Source: Flaviramulus sp. (lineage in GTDB: Bacteria > Bacteroidota > Bacteroidia > Flavobacteriales > Flavobacteriaceae). Taken from it: a DNA stretch of 64,000 bases. Each line of letters begins with the position of its first letter. Position 1 is the stretch's first letter. Where the stretch lies: the NCBI GenBank assembly GCA_030731745.1, contig JANQTJ010000014.1:41331-105330 (forward strand), read 5' to 3'. Made by a program: the position numbers and the translations under genes. Positions 2,246 through 54,480 of the stretch are shown piece after piece. Under the pieces are notes generated by a model. The model ran no database searches, had not been told where the DNA came from, and was given only the letters and a program-made list of their open reading frames with translations.

Positions 2246-3463
2246 TTAATGTGTTTTTTCCTCTATATAATCTGGATATAAAAAATGATTATAAGGGAAA
2301 CGGGTTACATGAATTTCACGAACCTCATCGTAGACACGTTTTTTAAAGTCTTCTAAATTTTGCTTATTTAGCGCAGAAATGAACAAGGCGTTGTTACCTA
2401 CTTTACCCATCCAAGTACTCTTCCACTCTTCAAGCGTGTAATGCCTTTCTGTTTTTTCAGTTTCTAAATCATCTTCATCTAAAGGCTCAGGCTCGTAGGC
2501 ATCAATTTTATTAAAGACCATAATTATGGGTTTATCACTACTTTTTATTTCGCCTAAAACTTTGTTCACAGACTCGATATGTTCTTCAAAATTTGGATGT
2601 GATATATCAACAATATGCAAAAGCAAATCAGCTTCTCTTACCTCGTCTAAAGTACTTTTAAAACTATCTACTAGCTGGGTTGGTAACTTCCGTATAAAAC
2701 CAACGGTATCACTTAATAAAAATGGTAGGTTTTGAATTACTACTTTTCTTACCGTAGTATCTAATGTTGCAAAAAGTTTATTTTCAGCAAAAACATCACT
2801 TTTACTAATTACATTCATTAATGTGGATTTACCAACATTAGTATAACCAACTAAAGCCACACGAACCATGGCTCCACGGTTACCGCGTTGCACTGCCATT
2901 TGCTTGTCAATAGTTTTAATGCGTTCTTTTAAAAGGGCAATTTTATCTCTTACAATACGTCTATCGGTTTCAATCTCTGTTTCTCCAGGTCCGCGCATTC
3001 CAATGCCACCTTTTTGTCGTTCTAAGTGTGTCCACATCCCTCGTAATCTTGGTAGTAAATATTCGCATTGTGCTAATTCTACTTGAGTTCGTGCATAACT
3101 TGTTTGAGCGCGTTGTGCAAAAATATCAAGTATAAGGTTGGTTCTATCTAATACTTTACAATTAAGTATTTTACTAATATTACGTTCTTGAGCCGAAGAT
3201 AATTCATCATCAAAAATAGCTGTTCCTATATCATTTTCTTCTATAAACTGGCGAACATCCTCTATTTTTCCCGTTCCAATAAAGGTTTTAGGATTAGGCA
3301 TATCCATTTTTTGCACAAAACGCTTAACCGCATAACCTCCTGCTGTAAAGGTTAAAAACTCTAACTCATCTAAATATTCTTTAGATTTTTCTTCACCTTG
3401 TTCCTTTGTTATAACACCTATTAAAACCGCTTTCTCTAAAGCAATGTCTTTCTTTTCAATCAT
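2246..3463 (-). CDS. hflX: GTPase HflX
   Basis: 405 aa; GPGETEIETDRR, GYTNVGKSTLMN, DTVGFI, NKID motifs. Confidence 0.93.
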   Translation of the reverse strand: MIEKKDIALEKAVLIGVITKEQGEEKSKEYLDELEFLTFTAGGYAVKRFVQKMDMPNPKTFIGTGKIEDVRQFIEENDIGTAIFDDELSSAQERNISKILNCKVLDRTNLILDIFAQRAQTSYARTQVELAQCEYLLPRLRGMWTHLERQKGGIGMRGPGETEIETDRRIVRDKIALLKERIKTIDKQMAVQRGNRGAMVRVALVGYTNVGKSTLMNVISKSDVFAENKLFATLDTTVRKVVIQNLPFLLSDTVGFIRKLPTQLVDSFKSTLDEVREADLLLHIVDISHPNFEEHIESVNKVLGEIKSSDKPIIMVFNKIDAYEPEPLDEDDLETEKTERHYTLEEWKSTWMGKVGNNALFISALNKQNLEDFKKRVYDEVREIHVTRFPYNHFLYPDYIEEKTH

Positions 3464-3532
3464 ATAAATAAATATTATACAAAGTTACGTAATTGCGACC
3501 ATTTTAATTTTTATATTTTTAGACATTATATT

Positions 3533-4507
3533 ATGAATATGACTGATTTTTTAGACGATATTCCTGTGCGTAATGATATGCAAACTGTAGCATTTTATAA
3601 TCTGGAAAATTTATTTGATTTAGTTGATGATAAACATACTAACGATAATGATTTCTTACCAACATCCGTTAAAAAATGGACTCCCAAACGATACGAGAAT
3701 AAACTCAGAAAATTAGGTTTTGCCATTTCCAATATTGGTAAAAAAGAAACGGGAAAACATCCAGCCTTAGTTGGTTTAGCAGAGGTTGAAAACGCTAAAG
3801 TGATTGAGGATTTAATAAAATCAAAACATTTAGAATCTTGTCATTACAAGTACGTGCATTACAACTCTCCCGACGAACGTGGTATCGATGTTGCTTTAAT
3901 TTATGATACCCATGCTTTTGAAGTTTTATATTCTGAAACTTTTACTGTTCCATTATTTGATTATAAAGACTTGCCAGATTATACAAGAGATGTTTTATTA
4001 GTTTCTGGTCTACTTGATGGAGAACATGTATATGTTATCGTAAATCATTGGTCGTCTAGACGTGAAGGAGAAAAAGAAACCGAACCTAAACGATTAGCTT
4101 CATCAAATAAAGTGATTGAGTTAATAACTTCTATTAAAAAAGAAAATGAGCATGCTAAAATTATTATAATTGGAGATTTTAATGATGACCCACATAATTT
4201 AAGCATCAAGCAACTTGCTGATTGCTGTAACTTATTTAATCCGATGGAAGCTTTACGATCTTTTAATAGAGGATCAACATACCACAATCGCCAATGGAAT
4301 TTATTTGATCAGATTTTAATTTCAGAAAACTTTTTTAAGCCTTCAAAAGATTTATTTGAATACTTTACTGCGAATATTTTTGATGAAGATTTTTTAAAAC
4401 TCTTTAACGGAAAATTTAAAGGGTCGCCATTTAGAACCTATATAGGCAAAAAGTATCAGGGTGGATATAGCGACCATTTTCCTGTATATGCCATTTTTAA
4501 GAAGTAA
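3533..4507 (+). CDS. Endonuclease/exonuclease/phosphatase (EEP) family protein, no evident signal peptide
   Basis: VAFYNLENLFD, GDFNDDP and SDHFPVY EEP motifs; N-terminus MNMTDFLDDIPVRNDMQT lacks a hydrophobic leader. Confidence 0.85.
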   Translation: MNMTDFLDDIPVRNDMQTVAFYNLENLFDLVDDKHTNDNDFLPTSVKKWTPKRYENKLRKLGFAISNIGKKETGKHPALVGLAEVENAKVIEDLIKSKHLESCHYKYVHYNSPDERGIDVALIYDTHAFEVLYSETFTVPLFDYKDLPDYTRDVLLVSGLLDGEHVYVIVNHWSSRREGEKETEPKRLASSNKVIELITSIKKENEHAKIIIIGDFNDDPHNLSIKQLADCCNLFNPMEALRSFNRGSTYHNRQWNLFDQILISENFFKPSKDLFEYFTANIFDEDFLKLFNGKFKGSPFRTYIGKKYQGGYSDHFPVYAIFKK

Positions 4508-4888
4508 TTAACTAGCTTGAACAATTACAAGAGTTAAACCCAAAATAGCAATTAGTAAAAGCCATAATAAGTAAATATTATAAGTGCTGTTAGATTTTGT
4601 TTTATTCATTTTAGCTTGTATAATCATACGTCTTTTACCTGTATAATACATCCAGTTTTTGAAGTAACAAAAAATAGCCACTAAAGCAAATAACACCCAT
4701 CCTTTTGAAGACGAGATGGTATCCATATTCATTTGCTCAAAAAATTCTGAAAAGAAAACACCAAGAAGCAATATCATGGAAACCTGTAAAATAGTAATAT
4801 AAATTAATGCAACTCCATTCGCTTTTTGTTTCCATCTAGGTTTATAGTAGACAAAAATATTATGGAATAGTGTTTCGGATAGTGTCAT
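4508..4888 (-). CDS. Small membrane protein of unknown function
   Basis: 126 aa with three hydrophobic segments; no family recognised. Confidence 0.6.
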   Translation of the reverse strand: MTLSETLFHNIFVYYKPRWKQKANGVALIYITILQVSMILLLGVFFSEFFEQMNMDTISSSKGWVLFALVAIFCYFKNWMYYTGKRRMIIQAKMNKTKSNSTYNIYLLWLLLIAILGLTLVIVQAS

Positions 4889-4928
4889 TTTGAGTGTTTT
4901 TTACTGAATAATAAAATGAAGCAATTTT

Positions 4929-6365
4929 CTATGGTAGATAATCAACACTAATCTCATCTAATTCATAAATACCATCAAAAGTATCTATGCCACCACCTGT
5001 ATATTTAAAAGCAATATACATGGTCCCAGATGAACAATATAAATTGACATTACCAGAATTAAACCACTGCACAAATGAATCGGTATCTTTTACAACATAT
5101 GCAGCAGATAATACTCCCCAATTTGCCGATGTTATATTAGCTTCAATGCCGTCCCAATCTAAACTATACAAAACTTCCAGAAAACTACTATCAGCTAAAC
5201 TATTAGAGGTTTTGAATTGTAGTGTTAGGTTATTGTAAGCGTCTAAATCTATGGGAGGGGTTATTAACCAAGCGATATTACTTAAATCTCCAGAACTTGC
5301 AGGTTGAACTCTTGCAGAACGCCCTAAAGATGCATTTGAAGACGTAGAGGAATATCCTTCCCATCCCTCACTGCCAACTTCAATGTAGTTTGTCCAACCA
5401 CTAATTTCAATCAATCTATTATTAGATTGCGTCTCAAAATCTTCATAAAATAAATTTTGAGTCCCAATAGTTTCTGCTAAACCACAATCTAATTCTAATG
5501 GGTCGCAACGCTCTGTATTGGTGAAATCAACATCAACTGCGCTGTTAGGAATTAACACATTAAAATCATCACCAAAATCTCTACTAAAAACTCCAGTAAT
5601 AGAACCTTTACCTTGGGGAATAATAAGAGTTCTAAAATTGGAAAATGTACTAGTCTGCATGATAATTGACACTCCAGAATCACAATTTTCTAAGGTACGC
5701 AATCCATCAAATTGATCAATAGACTCACTTGCATATGTTGCGCCTAACTCAAACCTATTTAATTGCATGTTATCAAGTTTTATAAGGGTATTTCTATCAG
5801 CTTCTGTTAAGTTAATCAGAGTAGTACTTTTTGGAATAATACTTACTACCTCTTGCGTTCTAATAATAATATTACGGTATTCAAATTCTTGTATTTGTTC
5901 AAGACGTTGCCCTTCGCCTTTCGCAATAGTTAAAATGCCATTAGACTTCCCTATCGTTAATCCGCTTAACTTTATATATACTTTTCTTCCAAACTCAAAA
6001 GTTTCTGATAAACTAGAAACATTAATATCAATCCTAAAACCTAATCTAGGGTCATTATCAGGGTTACTAGCATCTGTTTTATTTTGAATAATAAGCTCTT
6101 CAAAGAAGTTGCCAGCGGCATCACTAGAAACAACATATCCTTCAAGATAAATCTCTTCATCGACATCAATTGTAGTAATTAAATTTCCATTATTAATAGC
6201 TTGATCAAAACGCTGTTTTATAGCTCTGAATGTGGTAATTTTATTAGCAGGAACCATTACGTTTTCAGCTTCTCCCGGAATTGGAATACCATAATCATAA
6301 TCATTAACACAAGATGCTATCATCAAAATACCCAAAAGAATTAAAAGTTTTTTTATATTTTTCAT
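4929..6365 (-). CDS. DUF5689-type surface lipoprotein with C-terminal choice-of-anchor-J-like domain
   Basis: Lipobox LGILMIASC; EEIYLEGYVVSSDAAGNFFEELIIQN OB-fold-like segment; WLITPPIDLDAYNNLTLQFKT choice-of-anchor-like segment. Confidence 0.75.
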   Translation of the reverse strand: MKNIKKLLILLGILMIASCVNDYDYGIPIPGEAENVMVPANKITTFRAIKQRFDQAINNGNLITTIDVDEEIYLEGYVVSSDAAGNFFEELIIQNKTDASNPDNDPRLGFRIDINVSSLSETFEFGRKVYIKLSGLTIGKSNGILTIAKGEGQRLEQIQEFEYRNIIIRTQEVVSIIPKSTTLINLTEADRNTLIKLDNMQLNRFELGATYASESIDQFDGLRTLENCDSGVSIIMQTSTFSNFRTLIIPQGKGSITGVFSRDFGDDFNVLIPNSAVDVDFTNTERCDPLELDCGLAETIGTQNLFYEDFETQSNNRLIEISGWTNYIEVGSEGWEGYSSTSSNASLGRSARVQPASSGDLSNIAWLITPPIDLDAYNNLTLQFKTSNSLADSSFLEVLYSLDWDGIEANITSANWGVLSAAYVVKDTDSFVQWFNSGNVNLYCSSGTMYIAFKYTGGGIDTFDGIYELDEISVDYLP

Positions 6366-6377
6366 GGCATAATACTT

Positions 6378-9188
6378 TTAAAATTTAACATAAAGGTTTA
6401 CGAAATAAGTTGCGCCTCTTCCATACCAATATTTAGATCCAAAAACAGGTGCATCTAAAGCTTTATCATCTCTTAATTGTTCATAATTAGCATTTCTACC
6501 TTGTTCAAAACCTCCCGTTTTATAGGCTTCATCTAAAAAGTTATTTATACTTGCAAAAAAACCAACATAGTATTGATTGATTTTCCATGATTTACCACCA
6601 ACCAGATTGACAGACATATAATCATCAAATCGTTCTTGTTTTAAAAGTTCTCTCGCCAAAGTTTCATCGTAATCACTAAAAGTAAAACCATCAATATCTT
6701 TAAAAAAATTATCTGTTCTAGTTAACGGACTAATATCAATATAAGTGTTTCTAAAAAAATTAGCTGTAGCTCCAAACCACCAAAAATCAGGGTCTCGGTA
6801 ATCAAATCCAAATGAAAAAGCTTGATGAGGACCTGCTGCCACTTTATAATTTTTCAATTTCGAAGTCCCCAAATAAACATTCTCAAACCTATCTGAAGAC
6901 AAATATAAATCTGGATTATTGGCATAAGTAAATTGGCCAATTGAAGTTACACCTCTTAATTTTATAGTTGATGTTACTTGTGCCTCTAAACCTAATTCTA
7001 CACCTAAATGTAATTTATCTATTCCTGTTAATATTTCCTGAATAAATTCGGTATCATCATTTCCTGATTGCTGTGAACTAGAACCTGCAATTACGTTTCC
7101 AATACCATCTGCAAAGAAAAATGAAATTTCGTTGGCATCATTTAAATGAGTATAATAGCCCGTGATTTTGGCATTTAAAACCGAGCTTCTATAAATATAA
7201 CTGGCATCAAATGCCATTATTTTTTCCTCTTTAATACGAGGTACAATATTGTAGTTAAATCTTGAATTTGAATAGCTGTTCCTTATAGATGGTGCTTTAG
7301 TTATATAACCTACATTAACGTCAAACAATTGAGATCCAGTAAATTTATAGGTTAAACCACCTTTAAAACCCAATCCTAAAAAGGATAGCTGGTCTCCCTT
7401 TCCGATGGAATTATTTTCAAAATTTTCATTTTGAAACAACCCCTCTCTTAGGTATTGCGTATTTATTAAACTTGTAGATACATAAAAATCAAACTTTTTA
7501 TATTTGAATAAAGCTTGAGCATAACCAGACATAACATTTGCCAAAAAATTATAATTATAACTATAAGCATCACCTACTTGCAAAACTCTATTAGGGTTTC
7601 TTAAATCGAATTGAATACCATCAAAAGCATCTACATTTAAAAACCCTGTGCCCCCTAATAAATCTAAAACTTGTGCATAGTTTTTAGATTTTAAATTTTT
7701 ATACCCTAAAGAAGCATTAAATAATATATTATCATTTATTTCACTTGTTAAAATAGTATTTACTGTAAATTGAGAATCATCTACCACATCCTCATAAAGC
7801 ATATAAGTTGCGTTTTTCCCTTGTGAAGCATTTGATAAATTGGCTTCATACAAACTATTCCAATTTAATTGCCCATTGCTTAAAAATGCCTGTTGTGCTC
7901 CATAGACAAACTCTAAATCGTCTGGAAAATTACGCTCATAATAACTAGGTAGTTTTTGATAATAAGTAGGGCTTGGATTTCGTCCCCCACCTTCAAAAGT
8001 TACTTGTCCATCTGTTGTAACTATTCTATTAGTTCCTGTAAATGCAATTCTACTATTTCCAGTTTCACCAAATTGATATCCTAAATTGGTGTTTAGTCTT
8101 GTTTTACTATTAATATTCCAAAAATGGTTTAATATAAAAATAGGTTCTTCTACTTCTTTGATGCGAGAGTTACGTTTTTCTCCGTTTTGAAAACCCCAAT
8201 ACTCATTATAATTAAAACCTTTTAAATCATAAACCTCTTGAGTGTTTGGTGATGATCTCCCTCGCCTATTGGGAGCATAAATACCTGTGAAATTAAAACT
8301 ATGTTTATTAATCTTCTTTTCAACTGAAACAAAAAGCGAATTCGATTCGTATAAAGTAGCATCTTGATATCCTTCATTTCCCCAGCGCCTTCCCAATGAT
8401 AATGTATAAGCCCAATTATTTTTTAATAAACCCGAAGCATAAGAAAACATAAGACGATTTGTATAACTTCTGTTTGATGAGGAATATGTTAATCGCCCTC
8501 CTTCGGATACTTCTGAAGCCCTAGTATTTATATTTGTAGTTCCTAAAACGCCTCCAAAACTATAATTAGACGGTGTTAAACCAACCGATAATTCTTGACT
8601 GCGCATAACATCATTCAATCCGCCCCAATTACTCCACTGTGGTCTCCCATTATAGAGTTTATTCATTTCTATTCCATTAATTAAAATAGATCCATTATCT
8701 GAATCTAAACCTCTCAATCTATAAAAAGAGGCACTAAATTCAAAGGCAGCAGTACGTTGAAACAAATCTAGAGATGATGACAGCAATCCTGAAATATTAT
8801 CAGAACCTAAAAAATCATTATCCAATTCGTCATCAGAAAGTGTAATGGTAAATAAATCTTGACTTTCTGCAAGGTCTCTTTCTAAAGTCATGTCAAAAAT
8901 TTTAACTGTAGCATTATTGTTTACAATAATAGGATAACGTTTTGTATTAAATCCTACTTTCGAAATCTTTAAAATCTGTTCTCCTAAAGGCACATTTAAA
9001 GAAAAAATAAATTCACCTAAGGCATTAGTTGTAGTTGTTTGATTAGTTTCTTCAATAGTAATTAAAACTCCAGATATTAACTCATAAGACACACCATCTC
9101 TCACACTACCTTTAATAATTGTTTCTTGTGAAAGGGATTTGAAAATTGATAAAATTGAAACTAAAAGTACTACGGATAATTTCTTCAT
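6378..9188 (-). CDS. TonB-dependent receptor with N-terminal carboxypeptidase-regulatory-like domain
   Basis: 936 aa; signal peptide, CarbopepD_reg-like repeat, plug (FYRLRGLDSDNGSILINGIEMNKL), terminal aromatic NLYVKF. Confidence 0.88.
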   Translation of the reverse strand: MKKLSVVLLVSILSIFKSLSQETIIKGSVRDGVSYELISGVLITIEETNQTTTTNALGEFIFSLNVPLGEQILKISKVGFNTKRYPIIVNNNATVKIFDMTLERDLAESQDLFTITLSDDELDNDFLGSDNISGLLSSSLDLFQRTAAFEFSASFYRLRGLDSDNGSILINGIEMNKLYNGRPQWSNWGGLNDVMRSQELSVGLTPSNYSFGGVLGTTNINTRASEVSEGGRLTYSSSNRSYTNRLMFSYASGLLKNNWAYTLSLGRRWGNEGYQDATLYESNSLFVSVEKKINKHSFNFTGIYAPNRRGRSSPNTQEVYDLKGFNYNEYWGFQNGEKRNSRIKEVEEPIFILNHFWNINSKTRLNTNLGYQFGETGNSRIAFTGTNRIVTTDGQVTFEGGGRNPSPTYYQKLPSYYERNFPDDLEFVYGAQQAFLSNGQLNWNSLYEANLSNASQGKNATYMLYEDVVDDSQFTVNTILTSEINDNILFNASLGYKNLKSKNYAQVLDLLGGTGFLNVDAFDGIQFDLRNPNRVLQVGDAYSYNYNFLANVMSGYAQALFKYKKFDFYVSTSLINTQYLREGLFQNENFENNSIGKGDQLSFLGLGFKGGLTYKFTGSQLFDVNVGYITKAPSIRNSYSNSRFNYNIVPRIKEEKIMAFDASYIYRSSVLNAKITGYYTHLNDANEISFFFADGIGNVIAGSSSQQSGNDDTEFIQEILTGIDKLHLGVELGLEAQVTSTIKLRGVTSIGQFTYANNPDLYLSSDRFENVYLGTSKLKNYKVAAGPHQAFSFGFDYRDPDFWWFGATANFFRNTYIDISPLTRTDNFFKDIDGFTFSDYDETLARELLKQERFDDYMSVNLVGGKSWKINQYYVGFFASINNFLDEAYKTGGFEQGRNANYEQLRDDKALDAPVFGSKYWYGRGATYFVNLYVKF

Positions 9189-9296
9189 TTCTTAATCTAG
9201 AATTTCAATCAAAATTTTAAATTTAATTCATTTATATTAAATATTTACTTTTGGCGTAAGTTTTGTATTGAAAATTGTAACCTTAGATAGTTATTA

Positions 9297-10340
9297 ATGA
9301 GACAGATTAGCTTTTTTATTTTATTATTCTTTTGTTTATTTCTTAACGGTCAGAATAAAAAAACATATAAAATTCATACCGTTGCATTTTATAATCTTGA
9401 AAACTTATTTGATACAATTAATGATCCAAATAAGTTTGATGAAGCTAGTCCAATTATGGAAATTAACACCAACAGAACTTTTATCTATAAAAAAAAGATT
9501 AAAAATATGGCGCGGGTTATTTCTGAAATTGGGTTAGACGTAACTAACAATTCTCCTGTAATCTTAGGTGTTTCAGAAGTAGAAAATAGAGCCGTACTTG
9601 AAGATTTAATAAACGATTCCATATTGATTAAAAAAGACTATGGCATAATTCATTACTCATCACCAGATATTCGTGGGATTGATGTGGGGTTACTTTATCA
9701 AAAACAATTATTCTCACCAATTTCGACAAGTAGTCATGAGTTAAAAATTTATGATGATAATACTCAAAAAAGAGTTTATACACGAGATCAATTATTAGTT
9801 AGCGGGAATCTAGACGGAGAACTTATTCATATTATTGTTAATCATTGGCCATCCAGAAGTGGTGGACAAGCAAAAAGTAATCCTAAACGTGTCGCTGCAG
9901 CAAAACTAACTAAACACCTTGTTGATTCCTTACAAGTTATAGATCCTTACGCAAAGGTTTTTATAACAGGTGATTTAAATGACGACCCTACTAATAAAAG
10001 TATTAAAGAAATATTAAAAACCAAAAAAGACAAAAGCAAGATGGGATTAAAAGGTATTTACAATCCTTATGAAAGTTTTTTTAAAAACGGAATTGGTACT
10101 ACAGCTTACAGAGACAACTGGAGCCTATTCGATCAAATCTTACTTACCAAACCTTTACTGGAAAGAGATTATTCATCATTTAGATTTTATAAAGCAGGGA
10201 TTTTTAATAAACAATATTTAACTACTAAAACAGGTACTTATAAAGGTTATCCTTACAGAAGCTGGTCTAATGGTGGTTTCAGCGATGGTTTTAGCGATCA
10301 CTTTCCTGTATATGTTTATGTGATTAAGGAAGTTAACTAA
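9297..10340 (+). CDS. Secreted endonuclease/exonuclease/phosphatase family protein
   Basis: Signal peptide MRQISFFILLFFCLFLNGQ; VAFYNLENLFD, GDLNDDP, SDHFPVYVY; paralogue of 3533-4507. Confidence 0.87.
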   Translation: MRQISFFILLFFCLFLNGQNKKTYKIHTVAFYNLENLFDTINDPNKFDEASPIMEINTNRTFIYKKKIKNMARVISEIGLDVTNNSPVILGVSEVENRAVLEDLINDSILIKKDYGIIHYSSPDIRGIDVGLLYQKQLFSPISTSSHELKIYDDNTQKRVYTRDQLLVSGNLDGELIHIIVNHWPSRSGGQAKSNPKRVAAAKLTKHLVDSLQVIDPYAKVFITGDLNDDPTNKSIKEILKTKKDKSKMGLKGIYNPYESFFKNGIGTTAYRDNWSLFDQILLTKPLLERDYSSFRFYKAGIFNKQYLTTKTGTYKGYPYRSWSNGGFSDGFSDHFPVYVYVIKEVN

Positions 10341-10777
10341 CCTAACCAAGTGCTCCAAGGAATTCTAGATAAAAACAAGACTAAGGCTATTGAATAAAAA
10401 ATAGCAATTGTTTTTAATTTAGGTTTCGATATGCGTTTCTTTTTATGTTTTGAATAGCCAATTGTTATTAAAGCCACTGCTACAATATTTATTAAAGGGT
10501 GCTCTACTAAATACAATCTATTTACAGAATCTTTCATAATATCTCCCATTCCTAATTCGCTAAAGATTTGTAATCTAGGAGATACAAAATACAAAGCCAA
10601 CCCTATAAGTAATTGAATATGTGAAACTATCAAGGTAAATAATGATTTTCTAAAATCGGAAGCTTCATATTCATTATCTCCTAAAGTTTTAACAATAGCA
10701 TTTACTGTAGCAATAATTAAAACTAAAAGGACTAAATATGCCCAATATGAATGTAGGGTTTTTACAGTTTCGTACAT
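10337..10777 (-). CDS. Four-TM integral membrane protein (cytochrome-b-like hypothetical)
   Basis: 146 aa, repeated hydrophobic helices, HSYWAYLVLLVLIIATVNAIVK. Confidence 0.6.
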   Translation of the reverse strand: MYETVKTLHSYWAYLVLLVLIIATVNAIVKTLGDNEYEASDFRKSLFTLIVSHIQLLIGLALYFVSPRLQIFSELGMGDIMKDSVNRLYLVEHPLINIVAVALITIGYSKHKKKRISKPKLKTIAIFYSIALVLFLSRIPWSTWLG

Positions 10778-40299: not shown

Positions 40300-41658
40300 T
40301 TAGGTTAAAAGTGCTACTAAATCTTCAATTTTAGAAATTAAATGGATGTTTATTGTTGTAGTTTTTAGTGAAATTTTATTGTATTTGGAAACAAAAATTG
40401 TTGAAAAACCTAATTTTTCTGCCTCTAAAATACGTTGTTCAACACGTTGTACGGGTCTTATTTCTCCAGATAATCCAACCTCAGCTGCAAAGCAGAAATC
40501 TTTTTGTAAAGCTATATCTTCGTTTGAAGATAAAATAGCAGCAACTACAGCCAAATCAATTGCAGGGTCGTCAACCGTAATACCACCAGTTATATTTAAA
40601 AATACATCTTTAGCTCCTAATCTAAATCCTGCTCGTTTTTCTAAAACGGCTAACAACATATTTAACCTTTTTGCATTAAATCCTGTAGCACTTCGTTGAG
40701 GGGTGCCATAAACTGCTGTACTTACTAAAGCTTGCACCTCAATCATTAAAGGTCGCATACCCTCTAAAGTTGCAGCAATAGCATTACCTGATAACTCTTC
40801 GTCTTTTTTAGAAATTAGAATCTCAGAGGGGTTGGAAACTTCTCGTAAACCAGAACCTTGCATTTCATAAATACCCAACTCGTTTGTAGAACCAAATCTA
40901 TTTTTATGAGCTCTTAAAATTCTAAAAACATGATTACGATCACCTTCAAATTGTAAAACGGTATCAACCATATGTTCTAATATTTTAGGCCCTGCTATAT
41001 TACCATCTTTTGTAATATGCCCAATTAACAAAACAGGTGTAGCCGTTTCTTTAGCAAATTTAATTAACTCAGCGGTACATTCTTTTATTTGAGAAATACT
41101 TCCTGAAGACGATTCAATATAATCACTATGAAGCGTTTGAATAGAATCTATAATTACAATATCAGGTTCTAAAGCTTCAATTTGTTTAAAAATATTTTGA
41201 GTTTTAGTCTCTGTTAAAATATAGCAATTATTATTATTTGGGTTGATGCGTTCTGCTCGCATTTTTATTTGTTTCTGACTCTCTTCTCCAGAAACATATA
41301 AGGTTTTGTAAGGTAATTTTAGAGATATTTGAAGCAATAAGGTACTTTTTCCTATACCTGGCTCGCCCCCTAAAAGCGTTAAAGACCCAGGAACAATTCC
41401 ACCACCTAAAACGCGATTAAATTCTCCATCAAAAGTATTTAAACGTGCTTCTTTAGTCGTATCAATTTCGTTGATTCTTAAGGGAATTGAAGCTTTTTTT
41501 ATTGAAGAAGTTGGGGTTTTCCAATCACTTTTTTCAGGTTTTTGAATCAACTCTTCAATAATAGTATTCCATTCCTTACAGGCGTTACATTGCCCTTGCC
41601 ATTTAGCATATTGCGTACCGCAGTTCTGACAAAAAAAAGTAGTTTTTAACTTAGCCAT
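40300..41658 (-). CDS. radA: DNA repair protein RadA
   Basis: CQNCGTQYAKWQGQCNACKEWNT zinc finger, GGEPGIGKSTLLLQ, RFGSTNELGIYEM. Confidence 0.96.
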   Translation of the reverse strand: MAKLKTTFFCQNCGTQYAKWQGQCNACKEWNTIIEELIQKPEKSDWKTPTSSIKKASIPLRINEIDTTKEARLNTFDGEFNRVLGGGIVPGSLTLLGGEPGIGKSTLLLQISLKLPYKTLYVSGEESQKQIKMRAERINPNNNNCYILTETKTQNIFKQIEALEPDIVIIDSIQTLHSDYIESSSGSISQIKECTAELIKFAKETATPVLLIGHITKDGNIAGPKILEHMVDTVLQFEGDRNHVFRILRAHKNRFGSTNELGIYEMQGSGLREVSNPSEILISKKDEELSGNAIAATLEGMRPLMIEVQALVSTAVYGTPQRSATGFNAKRLNMLLAVLEKRAGFRLGAKDVFLNITGGITVDDPAIDLAVVAAILSSNEDIALQKDFCFAAEVGLSGEIRPVQRVEQRILEAEKLGFSTIFVSKYNKISLKTTTINIHLISKIEDLVALLT

Positions 41659-50050: not shown

Positions 50051-52873
50051 ATGAAAACAATTCTCCCATTTTTCCTATTGCTTTTTTGTGGATTAACTTT
50101 TTCACAAACAACAATTTCTGGTTCTGTTGTTGATGATACCAATCAACCTATTCCAGGAGCAAATATCATTGTTGTTGGTACCTCAACGGGTACAGTAACT
50201 GACTTTGATGGTAAATTTACACTTACTTACAATCAGAATCCACCATTTTCTGTTCAAGCAAGTAGTGTAGGTTTTGAAACTGTTACGATTGAAGTAACTG
50301 AAAACAATCAAAAAATTAATTTTATTTTAAAAGAAGGAACCTCTCTAGATGAAGTTGTAATTTCTGCGTCTAGAACTCCTGAACGAATCTTTGAATCACC
50401 GGTAACTGTTGAGCGTTTTGGCCTTAAAGAAATTAAAAACACAGCTTCAGCTGATTTTTATGATGGTTTAGAGAACTTAAAAGGTGTTGATGTAAATACC
50501 AATAGTTTAACTTTTAAGTCCATCAATACAAGAGGTTTTGCAACTTTTGCTAATAATCGATTTATGCAATTGGTTGATGGTATGGATAATTCTACACCTG
50601 CACTTAACTTTCCAATCGGAAACTTAGTAGGTATGACTGAAACGGATGTTTTAAGTGTTGAGCTCCTACCCGGTGCCTCTTCTGCTTTATACGGAGCTAA
50701 TGCCTTTAATGGTATTTTGTTTATGCGAAGTAAAAATCCTTTTGATCATGCAGGTATAAGTGTTTCTCTTAAAGGAGGCGTTACTTCTCAAGAAGCAGCT
50801 GGAACAAATGAATATAAAGATTTAAGCTTTCGTGCGGCCTATAAATTTAGTGATAAGTTTGCTGCTAAAATCAATTTTGGTTATTTAAAAGGAACAGATT
50901 GGGCTGCTAATAGTGAGGTTGATAAAACAAATATTGGAGGTACTCGTGCAAACATTGATTATGATGGGGTTAACGTTTATGGTGATGAAGTTTCAACAAA
51001 CCTTAAAGCTGTTAAAGAAAGTCCTACATTTTTAGCTGGACTAGCAGCAGCAGGAGGAAGTCCAGCAGCAGCAAGTTTAGTCCCTGACGTTGTAGTATCC
51101 AGAACAGGATATAATGAAAGTGATTTAACTAATTACAATGCCGAAAGTATTAAATCAGATTGGGGGTTATATTATAGACCATGGGAAGATGATTTTGAGG
51201 TGTCTTACGTTGGAAAAGTAGGTACAGGTTCTACAATATATCAAGGGACAAATCGATATAATATTGCTAACTTTTTTCAAGAACAACATAAATTAGAAAT
51301 TCGTAATGATAATTTCTTTATAAGAGGATATGTTGTAGCTGATAAAGCTGGAGATTCTTATGACATGGTATTTACAGGAGTAAATATTAACCGAGCTTGG
51401 AAAGATGACAACACTTGGTTTGGTGAATATACTGGCGCATATATTTCTGCAACACTTGCAGGAGCAACAGATACACAGGCGCATGCCGCGGGTAGAGCAA
51501 CGGCAGATACAGGGCGTTTTTTACCAGGCTCTCCCGGATTTCAATCTGCGTTTGATGCTAGTATAAATAATCCTGATTTAACAACAGGCTCTAAATTTCA
51601 AGATGCATCTAAATACTACCATTCAGATGCCAATTACAATTTTAGTCATTTAATTGATTTTGCTGATATTCAAGTTGGTGGATCTTACAGAAGATATAGT
51701 TTAAATTCTTCAGGTACTATTTACACTGATTTAGATGGTCCAATAGATTACTCAGAATTTGGTGTTTATACTCAAATTCAAAAAAGTTTAGAATTAAACG
51801 AATCTTTAGAATTAAAACTTACAGGATCTATGCGTTACGATAAATCAGAGTTCTTCGACGGATTTATATCTCCAAGAATATCTGCTGGTTTAACTGTTAA
51901 TAAAAATCATAACATCAGAACTTCTGTACAAACTGGTTTTAGAAACCCAACTACTCAGGATTTATTTATTGGATTAGACGCCGGTAGAGCCGTTTTAGTT
52001 GGAGCTGCACCAGAAAATTTGGATAGATGGACTAGAACTTATACGCTAGGTGATTCTAGATCAGCGTTTGATTTAAGTCAGGCTTCACAATCATTAGGAA
52101 TCCCTACAACAATAACTCGAACAGGAGCCGACGCATACAATAATTCTTATACAGCGAGTTCAGCACTAGCTCTAGCTGCTTCTGGAGATCCTTCGGTTTT
52201 AGAAATTGCAAATCCAGGCCTTGTAAAGCCAGAACAAGTAACTTCTGCAGAAGTTGGATATAGAGGTAAATTTAATAATCTTATTATTGATTTTAGTGCA
52301 TATTATAATAGTTACAAAGATTTTATTTCTCAAGAAGTTGTAGTTTCTCCTCTATACGGAACTGTTGGAGATGGTTCGCTATCCATTTTAGCATTAGCAA
52401 ACGGAGATAGTCAAGCATACAGTACCTATACAAACTCTGAAGCAAATGTAAATTCTTATGGTGCATCCATTGGTGTTTCTACTAAAGTTTTTGGTGACTT
52501 TGATTTAAGCGGTAGTTATACCTATGCTAAGTTAGATTTTGACAGAAAACAATATCCAGATTTTACAACGAACTTTAATACCCCTGAACATAAGTTCAAA
52601 GCATCTTTTGGAAATACTGAATTATTTAAAAATTTTGGCTTTAATATTGCTTACAGATATAGTGATGATTATTTCTGGGAAGCTACCTTTGGGAATGGTA
52701 TTGTTCCAGAATTTCATGTGGTAGATGCTCAAATCAATTTACAGGTTCCAAGTTTTAAATCTACTTTTAAAGCAGGAGCTACTAACTTGTTAGGCGATGA
52801 ATATTTTACAGCATTTGGTACAGGAAATATTGGATCGATGTACTATTTATCATGGACAATTAACAACTTATAA
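50051..52873 (+). CDS. TonB-dependent receptor with carboxypeptidase-regulatory-like domain
   Basis: 940 aa; ISGSVVDDTNQPIPGANIIVVGTSTGTVTDFDGKF; plug FKSINTRGFATFANNRFMQLVDGMDN. Confidence 0.9.
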   Translation: MKTILPFFLLLFCGLTFSQTTISGSVVDDTNQPIPGANIIVVGTSTGTVTDFDGKFTLTYNQNPPFSVQASSVGFETVTIEVTENNQKINFILKEGTSLDEVVISASRTPERIFESPVTVERFGLKEIKNTASADFYDGLENLKGVDVNTNSLTFKSINTRGFATFANNRFMQLVDGMDNSTPALNFPIGNLVGMTETDVLSVELLPGASSALYGANAFNGILFMRSKNPFDHAGISVSLKGGVTSQEAAGTNEYKDLSFRAAYKFSDKFAAKINFGYLKGTDWAANSEVDKTNIGGTRANIDYDGVNVYGDEVSTNLKAVKESPTFLAGLAAAGGSPAAASLVPDVVVSRTGYNESDLTNYNAESIKSDWGLYYRPWEDDFEVSYVGKVGTGSTIYQGTNRYNIANFFQEQHKLEIRNDNFFIRGYVVADKAGDSYDMVFTGVNINRAWKDDNTWFGEYTGAYISATLAGATDTQAHAAGRATADTGRFLPGSPGFQSAFDASINNPDLTTGSKFQDASKYYHSDANYNFSHLIDFADIQVGGSYRRYSLNSSGTIYTDLDGPIDYSEFGVYTQIQKSLELNESLELKLTGSMRYDKSEFFDGFISPRISAGLTVNKNHNIRTSVQTGFRNPTTQDLFIGLDAGRAVLVGAAPENLDRWTRTYTLGDSRSAFDLSQASQSLGIPTTITRTGADAYNNSYTASSALALAASGDPSVLEIANPGLVKPEQVTSAEVGYRGKFNNLIIDFSAYYNSYKDFISQEVVVSPLYGTVGDGSLSILALANGDSQAYSTYTNSEANVNSYGASIGVSTKVFGDFDLSGSYTYAKLDFDRKQYPDFTTNFNTPEHKFKASFGNTELFKNFGFNIAYRYSDDYFWEATFGNGIVPEFHVVDAQINLQVPSFKSTFKAGATNLLGDEYFTAFGTGNIGSMYYLSWTINNL

Positions 52874-52878
52874 TAATT

Positions 52879-54480
52879 ATGAAAAAGAATTTAAATAGTA
52901 CAAAATATTTATGGCTGTTAGTTATACTTTTAAGTTTTACAGCTTGTAACGAAATTGAAGACGTTTTAGCAGATAATAATATATTTCCTGCCGAAGAATT
53001 ACCAGAATTAACTTCTGGAACAGCTAACTTTTCTAACTATGTTGCCATTGGCGCTTCGTTTACAGCAGGATATACTGATGGGGCTGTTTTTATAGCTGCA
53101 CAAGAGAATTCTTTCCCAAATATTTTATCCAAAGAATTTGCTAAAATTGGAGGGGGGAACTTCGCACAGCCATTAATGAATGACAATACTGGAGGCTTGT
53201 TAATTGGAACAACTCCAGTAGCTGCGTATAGATTAATTTTTAATGGTTCAGGACCACAACGCTTAAATGATTTCTTAACTGGAGTTGGTGCTCCAACACC
53301 ACCTATTACAACAGATGCATCTGTTAATTTAGGTAGTAGCTTCAATAATGTTGGAGTCCCTGTTGCAAAAAGTTTTCATGTTACCTTTCCAGGTTATGGT
53401 AGTTTTAACCCTTATTTTGGAAGAATGGCTTCATCTGCTTCGGCTACTATGCTTGGAGATGCATTGAGTCAAAATCCAACATTTTTTACACTTTCTGAAT
53501 TAGGAGGTAATGATGTTTTAGGATTTGCAACTTCAGGAGGTTCAGGTGTTGACCAAACTGGAAATTTCAATCCTGCAACTTATGGTAATAATGATATTAC
53601 AGACCCAAATGTTTTTGCTAGTGTCTTTAGCGACGTTGTTACTGCTTTAACTAGCACAGGTGCCAAAGGCGTAGTAACTAATGTGCCTTACATAACTGAT
53701 TTACCTTATTTTACAACCATCCCTAATAACGCTTTAGTTTTAGATGCTACAACAGCAGGGCAATTAACAGGGTTTTTTCAAGCAGTAAGTGGTATCTTTT
53801 TACAAGGCGCTCTTTTACAAGGTGTTCCTTTAGCACAAGCACAGGCTTTAGCCGCTCAATATGCAATTACATTTAACGCTGGTCCCAATAGATTTTTAAT
53901 AGACGTTCCGGTAACACAATCTAATCCATTAGGATTTAGACAAATGACTGAAAATGAATTGCTTCTCCTTCCAATAGATAGAGCTGCATTAGCACAAGGT
54001 TATGGTACGGTTTCTCTTTCTAATGAAGTTTTACAAGTATTGGGAATTCTTCAAGCTGGAGGCACGCCAACACCTCAACAGGCAGGATTGGTTTTAGCAG
54101 CTGTTAATGGTATTGATGATAAAGATGCTTTGGATACTGATGAGCTAGCAAGTATAAAAAATGCTACCGATGCTTATAATCAAACAATAGCTGCCATTGC
54201 TAACTCAAACGAGAATATAGCTTTAGTGGATTTAAACGTTATTTTAACTGAATTAGCTTCAACAGGAATTAGTTTTGATAACTATACGTTTAATGCCAAT
54301 TTAGTTACAGGTGGTGCCGTTAGTTTAGATGGTATACATTTAACTGCTAGAGGTTATGCTTTTATGGCTAACAAATTTTTAGAAGCTATTGATAATCAAT
54401 TTGGTTCTAACTTTGTTGCCTCAGGGAATGTTGCTAATGTGGGAGATTACCCAACAAATTATTCGCCATCTTTACAATAG
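52879..54480 (+). CDS. SGNH/GDSL-like hydrolase lipoprotein
   Basis: Lipobox LLSFTAC; VAIGASFTAGYTDG block I, ELGGNDVLGF block III, LDGIHLTARGY block V. Confidence 0.8.
   Translation: MKKNLNSTKYLWLLVILLSFTACNEIEDVLADNNIFPAEELPELTSGTANFSNYVAIGASFTAGYTDGAVFIAAQENSFPNILSKEFAKIGGGNFAQPLMNDNTGGLLIGTTPVAAYRLIFNGSGPQRLNDFLTGVGAPTPPITTDASVNLGSSFNNVGVPVAKSFHVTFPGYGSFNPYFGRMASSASATMLGDALSQNPTFFTLSELGGNDVLGFATSGGSGVDQTGNFNPATYGNNDITDPNVFASVFSDVVTALTSTGAKGVVTNVPYITDLPYFTTIPNNALVLDATTAGQLTGFFQAVSGIFLQGALLQGVPLAQAQALAAQYAITFNAGPNRFLIDVPVTQSNPLGFRQMTENELLLLPIDRAALAQGYGTVSLSNEVLQVLGILQAGGTPTPQQAGLVLAAVNGIDDKDALDTDELASIKNATDAYNQTIAAIANSNENIALVDLNVILTELASTGISFDNYTFNANLVTGGAVSLDGIHLTARGYAFMANKFLEAIDNQFGSNFVASGNVANVGDYPTNYSPSLQ

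Follow-up and report, generated by a model that had tools for sequence, protein, structure and literature searches.

How DNA passes the outer membrane of Bacteroidota is a question to which a locus in a 64,000-nucleotide stretch of a Flaviramulus sp. contig (JANQTJ010000014.1; hereafter the window) speaks directly, since it carries relatives of a gene pair that emerged from a transformation screen in Riemerella anatipestifer and that is unrelated to known machinery. A sequence-only reading of the window had seen there a candidate system for acquiring extracellular nucleic acid or phosphate, built of a TonB-dependent receptor, a lipoprotein and two EEP-family proteins. All four open reading frames, with their coordinates, strands and gaps of 12 and 108 nt, are exactly as that reading gave them. 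The features are as follows.

3533..4507, + strand: non-exported EEP paralog, 324 aa; adjoins hflX; neighbour, probably outside the trio
4508..4888, - strand: small membrane-type protein, 126 aa; occasional neighbour between the lipoprotein and the 3533 EEP; not claimed as part
4929..6365, - strand: lipoprotein with DUF5689 and choice-of-anchor-J domains, 478 aa; putative DNA-capturing subunit; counterpart of RA0C_RS04920
6378..9188, - strand: TonB-dependent receptor, 936 aa; putative outer-membrane DNA channel; ortholog of R. anatipestifer RA0C_RS04915
9189..9296, no strand: intergenic region of 108 nt separating the divergent genes for the receptor and the exported EEP; probably holds the promoters of both
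9297..10340, + strand: exported protein of the EEP nuclease family, 347 aa; partner divergent from the receptor; candidate for a periplasmic nuclease in DNA uptake

The domains that had been assigned to these proteins were recovered. In a Pfam/NCBIfam scan the lipoprotein, separated from the receptor by 12 nt (6366-6377), matched PF18942 (DUF5689; E 9e-55) and, at its C terminus, choice_anch_J (2.2e-14). Both EEP proteins, which share 38% identity, belong to PF19580 (Exo_endo_phos_3), the 3533 protein at 1.5e-103 and the 9297 protein at 5.3e-110 (368 bits). The sole Pfam match of the receptor is an N-terminal CarboxypepD_reg domain, its plug domain having no Pfam match; its TonB-type fold was recognised by Foldseek on a structure model (mean pLDDT 63, the plug region being of low confidence), the best matches being the TonB-dependent transporters YncD/PqqU (E 4e-22). 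The structure prediction proposed for the DUF5689 protein gave a model (pLDDT 75) whose N-terminal domain is mostly beta and which ends in a jelly roll resembling the MAM and gingipain adhesin domains; this jelly roll dominated the Foldseek search with the whole protein, which therefore says little about the fold of DUF5689. PDB sequence searches with single window proteins returned nothing, and profile searches gave weak or partial matches only. In most relatives C-V-[QK]-D-D-[DE]-[FYW] comes after the lipobox, near the Bacteroidetes lipoprotein export signal consensus (PMC5080379), in which a basic or polar residue and then an acidic pair come after the lipobox Cys; the window copy, C-V-N-D-Y-D-Y, is weaker.

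Receptor, DUF5689 lipoprotein and exported EEP (the trio) are conserved together to a degree that is far beyond chance. DUF5689 is present in 142 of the 151 Flavobacteriaceae genera; among the matches listed, 135/138 genera have the receptor no farther than 5 kb from it and 120/126 have the best-scoring EEP no farther than 8 kb from it, and EEP and receptor are at most 6 kb apart in 123/127. Gene order, for which a synteny survey had been suggested, was strongly preserved: DUF5689, receptor and divergent EEP follow one another with few exceptions in 40 genera, most other neighbours varying, and the same order recurs in 13/13 Weeksellaceae-type genomes (family f4; several of them come up again under the names of Chryseobacterium and its relatives), in 78 of the 80 named loci and in 6/8 strong-hit genomes from other orders. 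The divergent gap between receptor and EEP is likewise kept across genomes, mostly at about 50-285 bp. The gene dprA is adjacent to or near the trio in several loci, and comF lies within 10 kb in 18/78. The receptor is split across two open reading frames in L053 and L054 (genomes G016 and G086), possibly by frameshifts or as pseudogenes.

Neither of the two small membrane-type proteins flanking the trio matched anything in Pfam or NCBIfam. The 126-aa protein (4508-4888) was found in 9/41 loci. A 146-aa membrane protein (10337-10777) overlaps the end of the exported EEP and occurs near it in 32/41 Flavobacteriaceae loci; in Weeksellaceae-type loci, where seen, it lies several kb off the trio, and we keep it as a neighbour. 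Elsewhere in the window a further receptor is followed after 5 nt by a lipoprotein resembling an SGNH-type hydrolase (50051-54480), and a RadA-like gene (40300-41658) lies about 30 kb from the trio; another RadA-like gene is near the trio in L059.

The function of the pair has been addressed genetically in R. anatipestifer. A transposon screen for natural transformation recovered RA0C_RS04915 and RA0C_RS04920, a predicted operon encoding a CarboxypepD_reg outer-membrane protein and a protein with DUF5689, DUF5017 and choice-of-anchor J, and markerless deletion of either gene brought transformation below detection, against 5.4e-5 for the wild type (PMC8459023). The authors proposed that DNA is bound by RS04920 and passed by RS04915, and named no enzyme that would make it single-stranded. 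In Riemerella the genes for ComEC, ComF, DprA and RecA have also been shown to be essential. In the named genome collection, which supplied both Riemerella loci (R. anatipestifer, L165; R. columbina, L168), L165 reads ComEC (586 aa), 145 aa, 542 aa and EEP (397 aa), followed divergently by receptor (935 aa) and DUF5689 lipoprotein (469 aa). The window and L165 proteins are 34% identical over the full length of the receptor, 24% identical in a full-length match of the lipoprotein (8e-26) and 41% identical for the EEP. In a receptor tree 54 trio receptors, including those of Riemerella and the window, formed one clade apart from other receptors, with an SH-aLRT of 99 obtained by a quick method without bootstrap. 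The window pair thus most likely belongs to the Riemerella-type transformation system, and as a pair it was already known. What appears undescribed in the open-licence papers searched, among which DUF5689 is named in PMC8459023 only, is the conserved trio, the EEP in Riemerella and the range across orders. Open reading frames that we named Cas9-type, Cas1-like and Cas2-like from their sequence adjoin the R. anatipestifer transformation locus (L165 15664-21106).

The order of L165 fits the spacing of the tags RS04895...RS04920, so that the EEP would be RS04910; this mapping is indirect, because L165 is another strain than that of the paper. RS04910 was named there as the gene upstream of the pair, served only as a qPCR control and was never deleted (PMC8459023). 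Its not being among the genes of the screen is weak evidence either way, because the chance that 3000 random insertions miss a gene of this size is about 19% and only transformation-defective mutants were listed. In a companion paper an R. anatipestifer tonB_A mutant showed lower transformation without an iron-uptake defect (PMC8383284). We infer a connection to this receptor; the reading is our own, because the authors of that study suspected nutrient transport.

We then compared the distribution of DUF5689 with that of ComEC, counting ComEC as intact at a length of at least 590 aa and without internal stop, a cut-off that was set after the table had been inspected. Intact ComEC is present in 137/141 genera with DUF5689 and in 1/9 without (p = 8e-10); within genomes below 2.5 Mb the figures are 6/8 and 0/7 (p = 0.007), and by ComEC presence alone 140/141 and 5/9 (p = 3e-5), all three p values being genome counts that ignore kinship. 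The EEP family is missing in six of the nine genera without DUF5689 and in none of the 141 with it. Since the losses are mostly in small genomes, general genome reduction contributes to them. DUF5689, receptor, exported EEP and ComEC have all disappeared from G024 (3.6 Mb, rated 100% complete), which has kept the non-exported EEP beside hflX. Two complete genomes depart from the pattern: G116 (L046) holds an intact trio with no ComEC or DprA match, and in G026 (L066) receptor and lipoprotein are gone although ComEC and DprA are present and the exported EEP is still found, near the 146-aa protein. Of further transformation genes, the window's own genome contains DprA, a ComF-type zinc-ribbon match and NamZ/DUF1343; ComEC was not found in this assembly, which is 75% complete.

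These data bear on the two EEP proteins differently. In all 126 trio EEPs E94, H183, D226, N228, D279, D334 and H335 are identical and the N terminus is signal-peptide-like, a feature that the non-exported paralogs lack; exported and non-exported EEPs form largely separate groups in the tree. The trio EEPs thus have what an active EEP enzyme should need in its catalytic residues, and are predicted nucleases. No T9SS sorting tail was matched on the exported EEP in domain scans, so that the protein is likely periplasmic, and it may be the DNA-cutting enzyme of the system to which the pair belongs. By contrast the 3533 EEP, without a signal peptide and cast earlier as the cytosolic enzyme that finishes processing, tracks hflX rather than the trio: it lies beside the trio in only about 8/41 loci, each time at hflX, and it persists in G024, where the trio is absent. 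We rejected it as a component, and it probably belongs with hflX. The divergent pair of hflX and non-exported EEP (2246-4507) is itself kept in several genomes, including the trio-less G024 and L214.

We consider it likely that the trio serves natural transformation as a module for the uptake of DNA across the outer membrane. In such a scheme the surface-displayed lipoprotein would capture extracellular double-stranded DNA and the TonB-energised receptor would pass it through the outer membrane, the pair being experimentally essential for transformation in Riemerella. Within the periplasm the exported EEP, judging by its sequence, might nick or trim the DNA or remove one strand, and single strands would then be brought in and recombined by ComEC, ComF, DprA and RecA. 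The earlier guess at nucleic acid as the substrate of a lipoprotein and TonB-type receptor, with an exported EEP as partner, fits this scheme. Less in keeping with it are the two exceptional genomes, G116 and G026, the absence of a ComEC match from the window's own assembly, the low identity of the lipoproteins (24%) and the fact that Flavobacterium johnsoniae, which has homologs, was not transformable under the conditions tried (PMC8459023). In L113, a distant relative, the DUF5689 stretch and an OB-fold nucleic-acid-binding match overlap, and in distant relatives DUF5689 occurs in one protein with LTD (L113) or PLD-type nuclease (L117) domains. More distant families include loci (L115, L117) in which a receptor has an LTD protein on one side and, on the other, a larger protein with PLD-type nuclease domains; in the L115-L117 group both flanking proteins carry T9SS tails where scanned, and DUF5689 is above cut-off in L117. 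It is possible that L115, L116 and L117 represent a parallel nucleic-acid system with another nuclease. As members of the same system they were rejected, and they were left out of the counts because their receptors fall outside the receptor clade.

The nutritional purpose originally proposed for the locus is not supported by these results, the orthologous pair being essential for natural transformation in Riemerella (PMC8459023) and DUF5689 tracking intact ComEC; nor did we see neighbour genes supporting a role in phosphate acquisition. A more general form of this idea, that the trio imports phosphate, nucleosides or carbon from DNA and that transformation is a by-product where ComEC is present, draws on the near-universal occurrence of the trio, which includes species not known as competent, on G116, where the trio stays intact though ComEC and DprA are missing, and on the intact catalytic residues of the EEP. 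We nevertheless judge nutrition unlikely to be the primary role, given the association of DUF5689 with intact ComEC, the lack of any further gene as strictly conserved alongside the trio and the finding that transformation in Riemerella fell, and did not rise, when phosphate was removed (PMC8383284). Less probable still is that lipoprotein and receptor maintain the envelope, for example in LPS display, and that transformation is lost indirectly. This idea derives from R. anatipestifer M949_1556, which the literature cites in connection with the synthesis of LPS, with antigenicity and with virulence, since the L165 lipoprotein joins the family named after that protein (590.8 bits against a cut-off of 475). 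However, deletion of either Riemerella gene takes transformation below detection, the pair co-occurs with ComEC, and an LPS function gives no reason to expect a nuclease partner.

A further alternative concerns the EEP step only. In other bacteria, extracellular DNases of the EEP type can reduce transformation, and the exported EEP could accordingly degrade DNA for scavenging or protection and so limit uptake, working as an antagonist and not in processing, as might be read from G026, which keeps the EEP without the receptor pair. This is a minority possibility that we take seriously, although the proximity of EEP and receptor (no more than 6 kb in 123/127 genera, among the matches listed) and the loss or decay of the exported EEP in most genomes that lost the pair speak against it. 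Returning to the uptake module, a wider reading, which we hold tentatively, sees in the trio a TonB-driven importer of DNA that spans the Bacteroidia and takes the place which type IV pili and secretins have elsewhere, its EEP being the missing nuclease that converts or trims incoming duplex DNA for ComEC. The third gene, kept across orders and beside the Riemerella pair, is in any case a specific candidate for the nuclease step. The trio may also help to predict which flavobacteria are transformable, which bears on gene spread and on genetic tools in the group.

Among known systems the closest is the Riemerella pair, with which the window shares the receptor clade, a DUF5689 and choice-of-anchor-J lipoprotein directly downstream, the two-gene order and a divergent EEP; unlike in the window, where comEC is not nearby, the Riemerella EEP is close to comEC, and only the pair was described there. 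The window lipoprotein matches the NCBIfam profile of M949_1556 lipoproteins (NF052645) over its full length, but at 163.6 bits it is below the cut-off, which the L165 protein and single-DUF5689 Weeksellaceae-type versions pass. With the extracellular DNases ExeM/NucH the locus has in common an EEP catalytic domain and, in the wider DUF5689 setting, OB-fold and LTD domains, whereas the window has the OB-like domain and the EEP on different proteins; against NF033681 (ExeM/NucH) the 3533 EEP scored 36.1 bits, the cut-off being 300, and the 9297 EEP had no match. The SusC/SusD (RagA/RagB) importers of glycans and peptides similarly place a TonB-dependent receptor and a surface lipoprotein side by side, but SusD has a helical fold, in contrast to the mostly beta and jelly-roll model of the window lipoprotein; with no SusC or SusD match in Pfam or NCBIfam, membership of that family was rejected and the SusCD-like logic first suggested stands as an analogy only. 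In other Gram-negatives the type IV pilus and secretin are the route of DNA uptake. The trio would share with them the task of delivering DNA to a ComEC-dependent inner-membrane step, and would differ in employing a TonB-dependent receptor.
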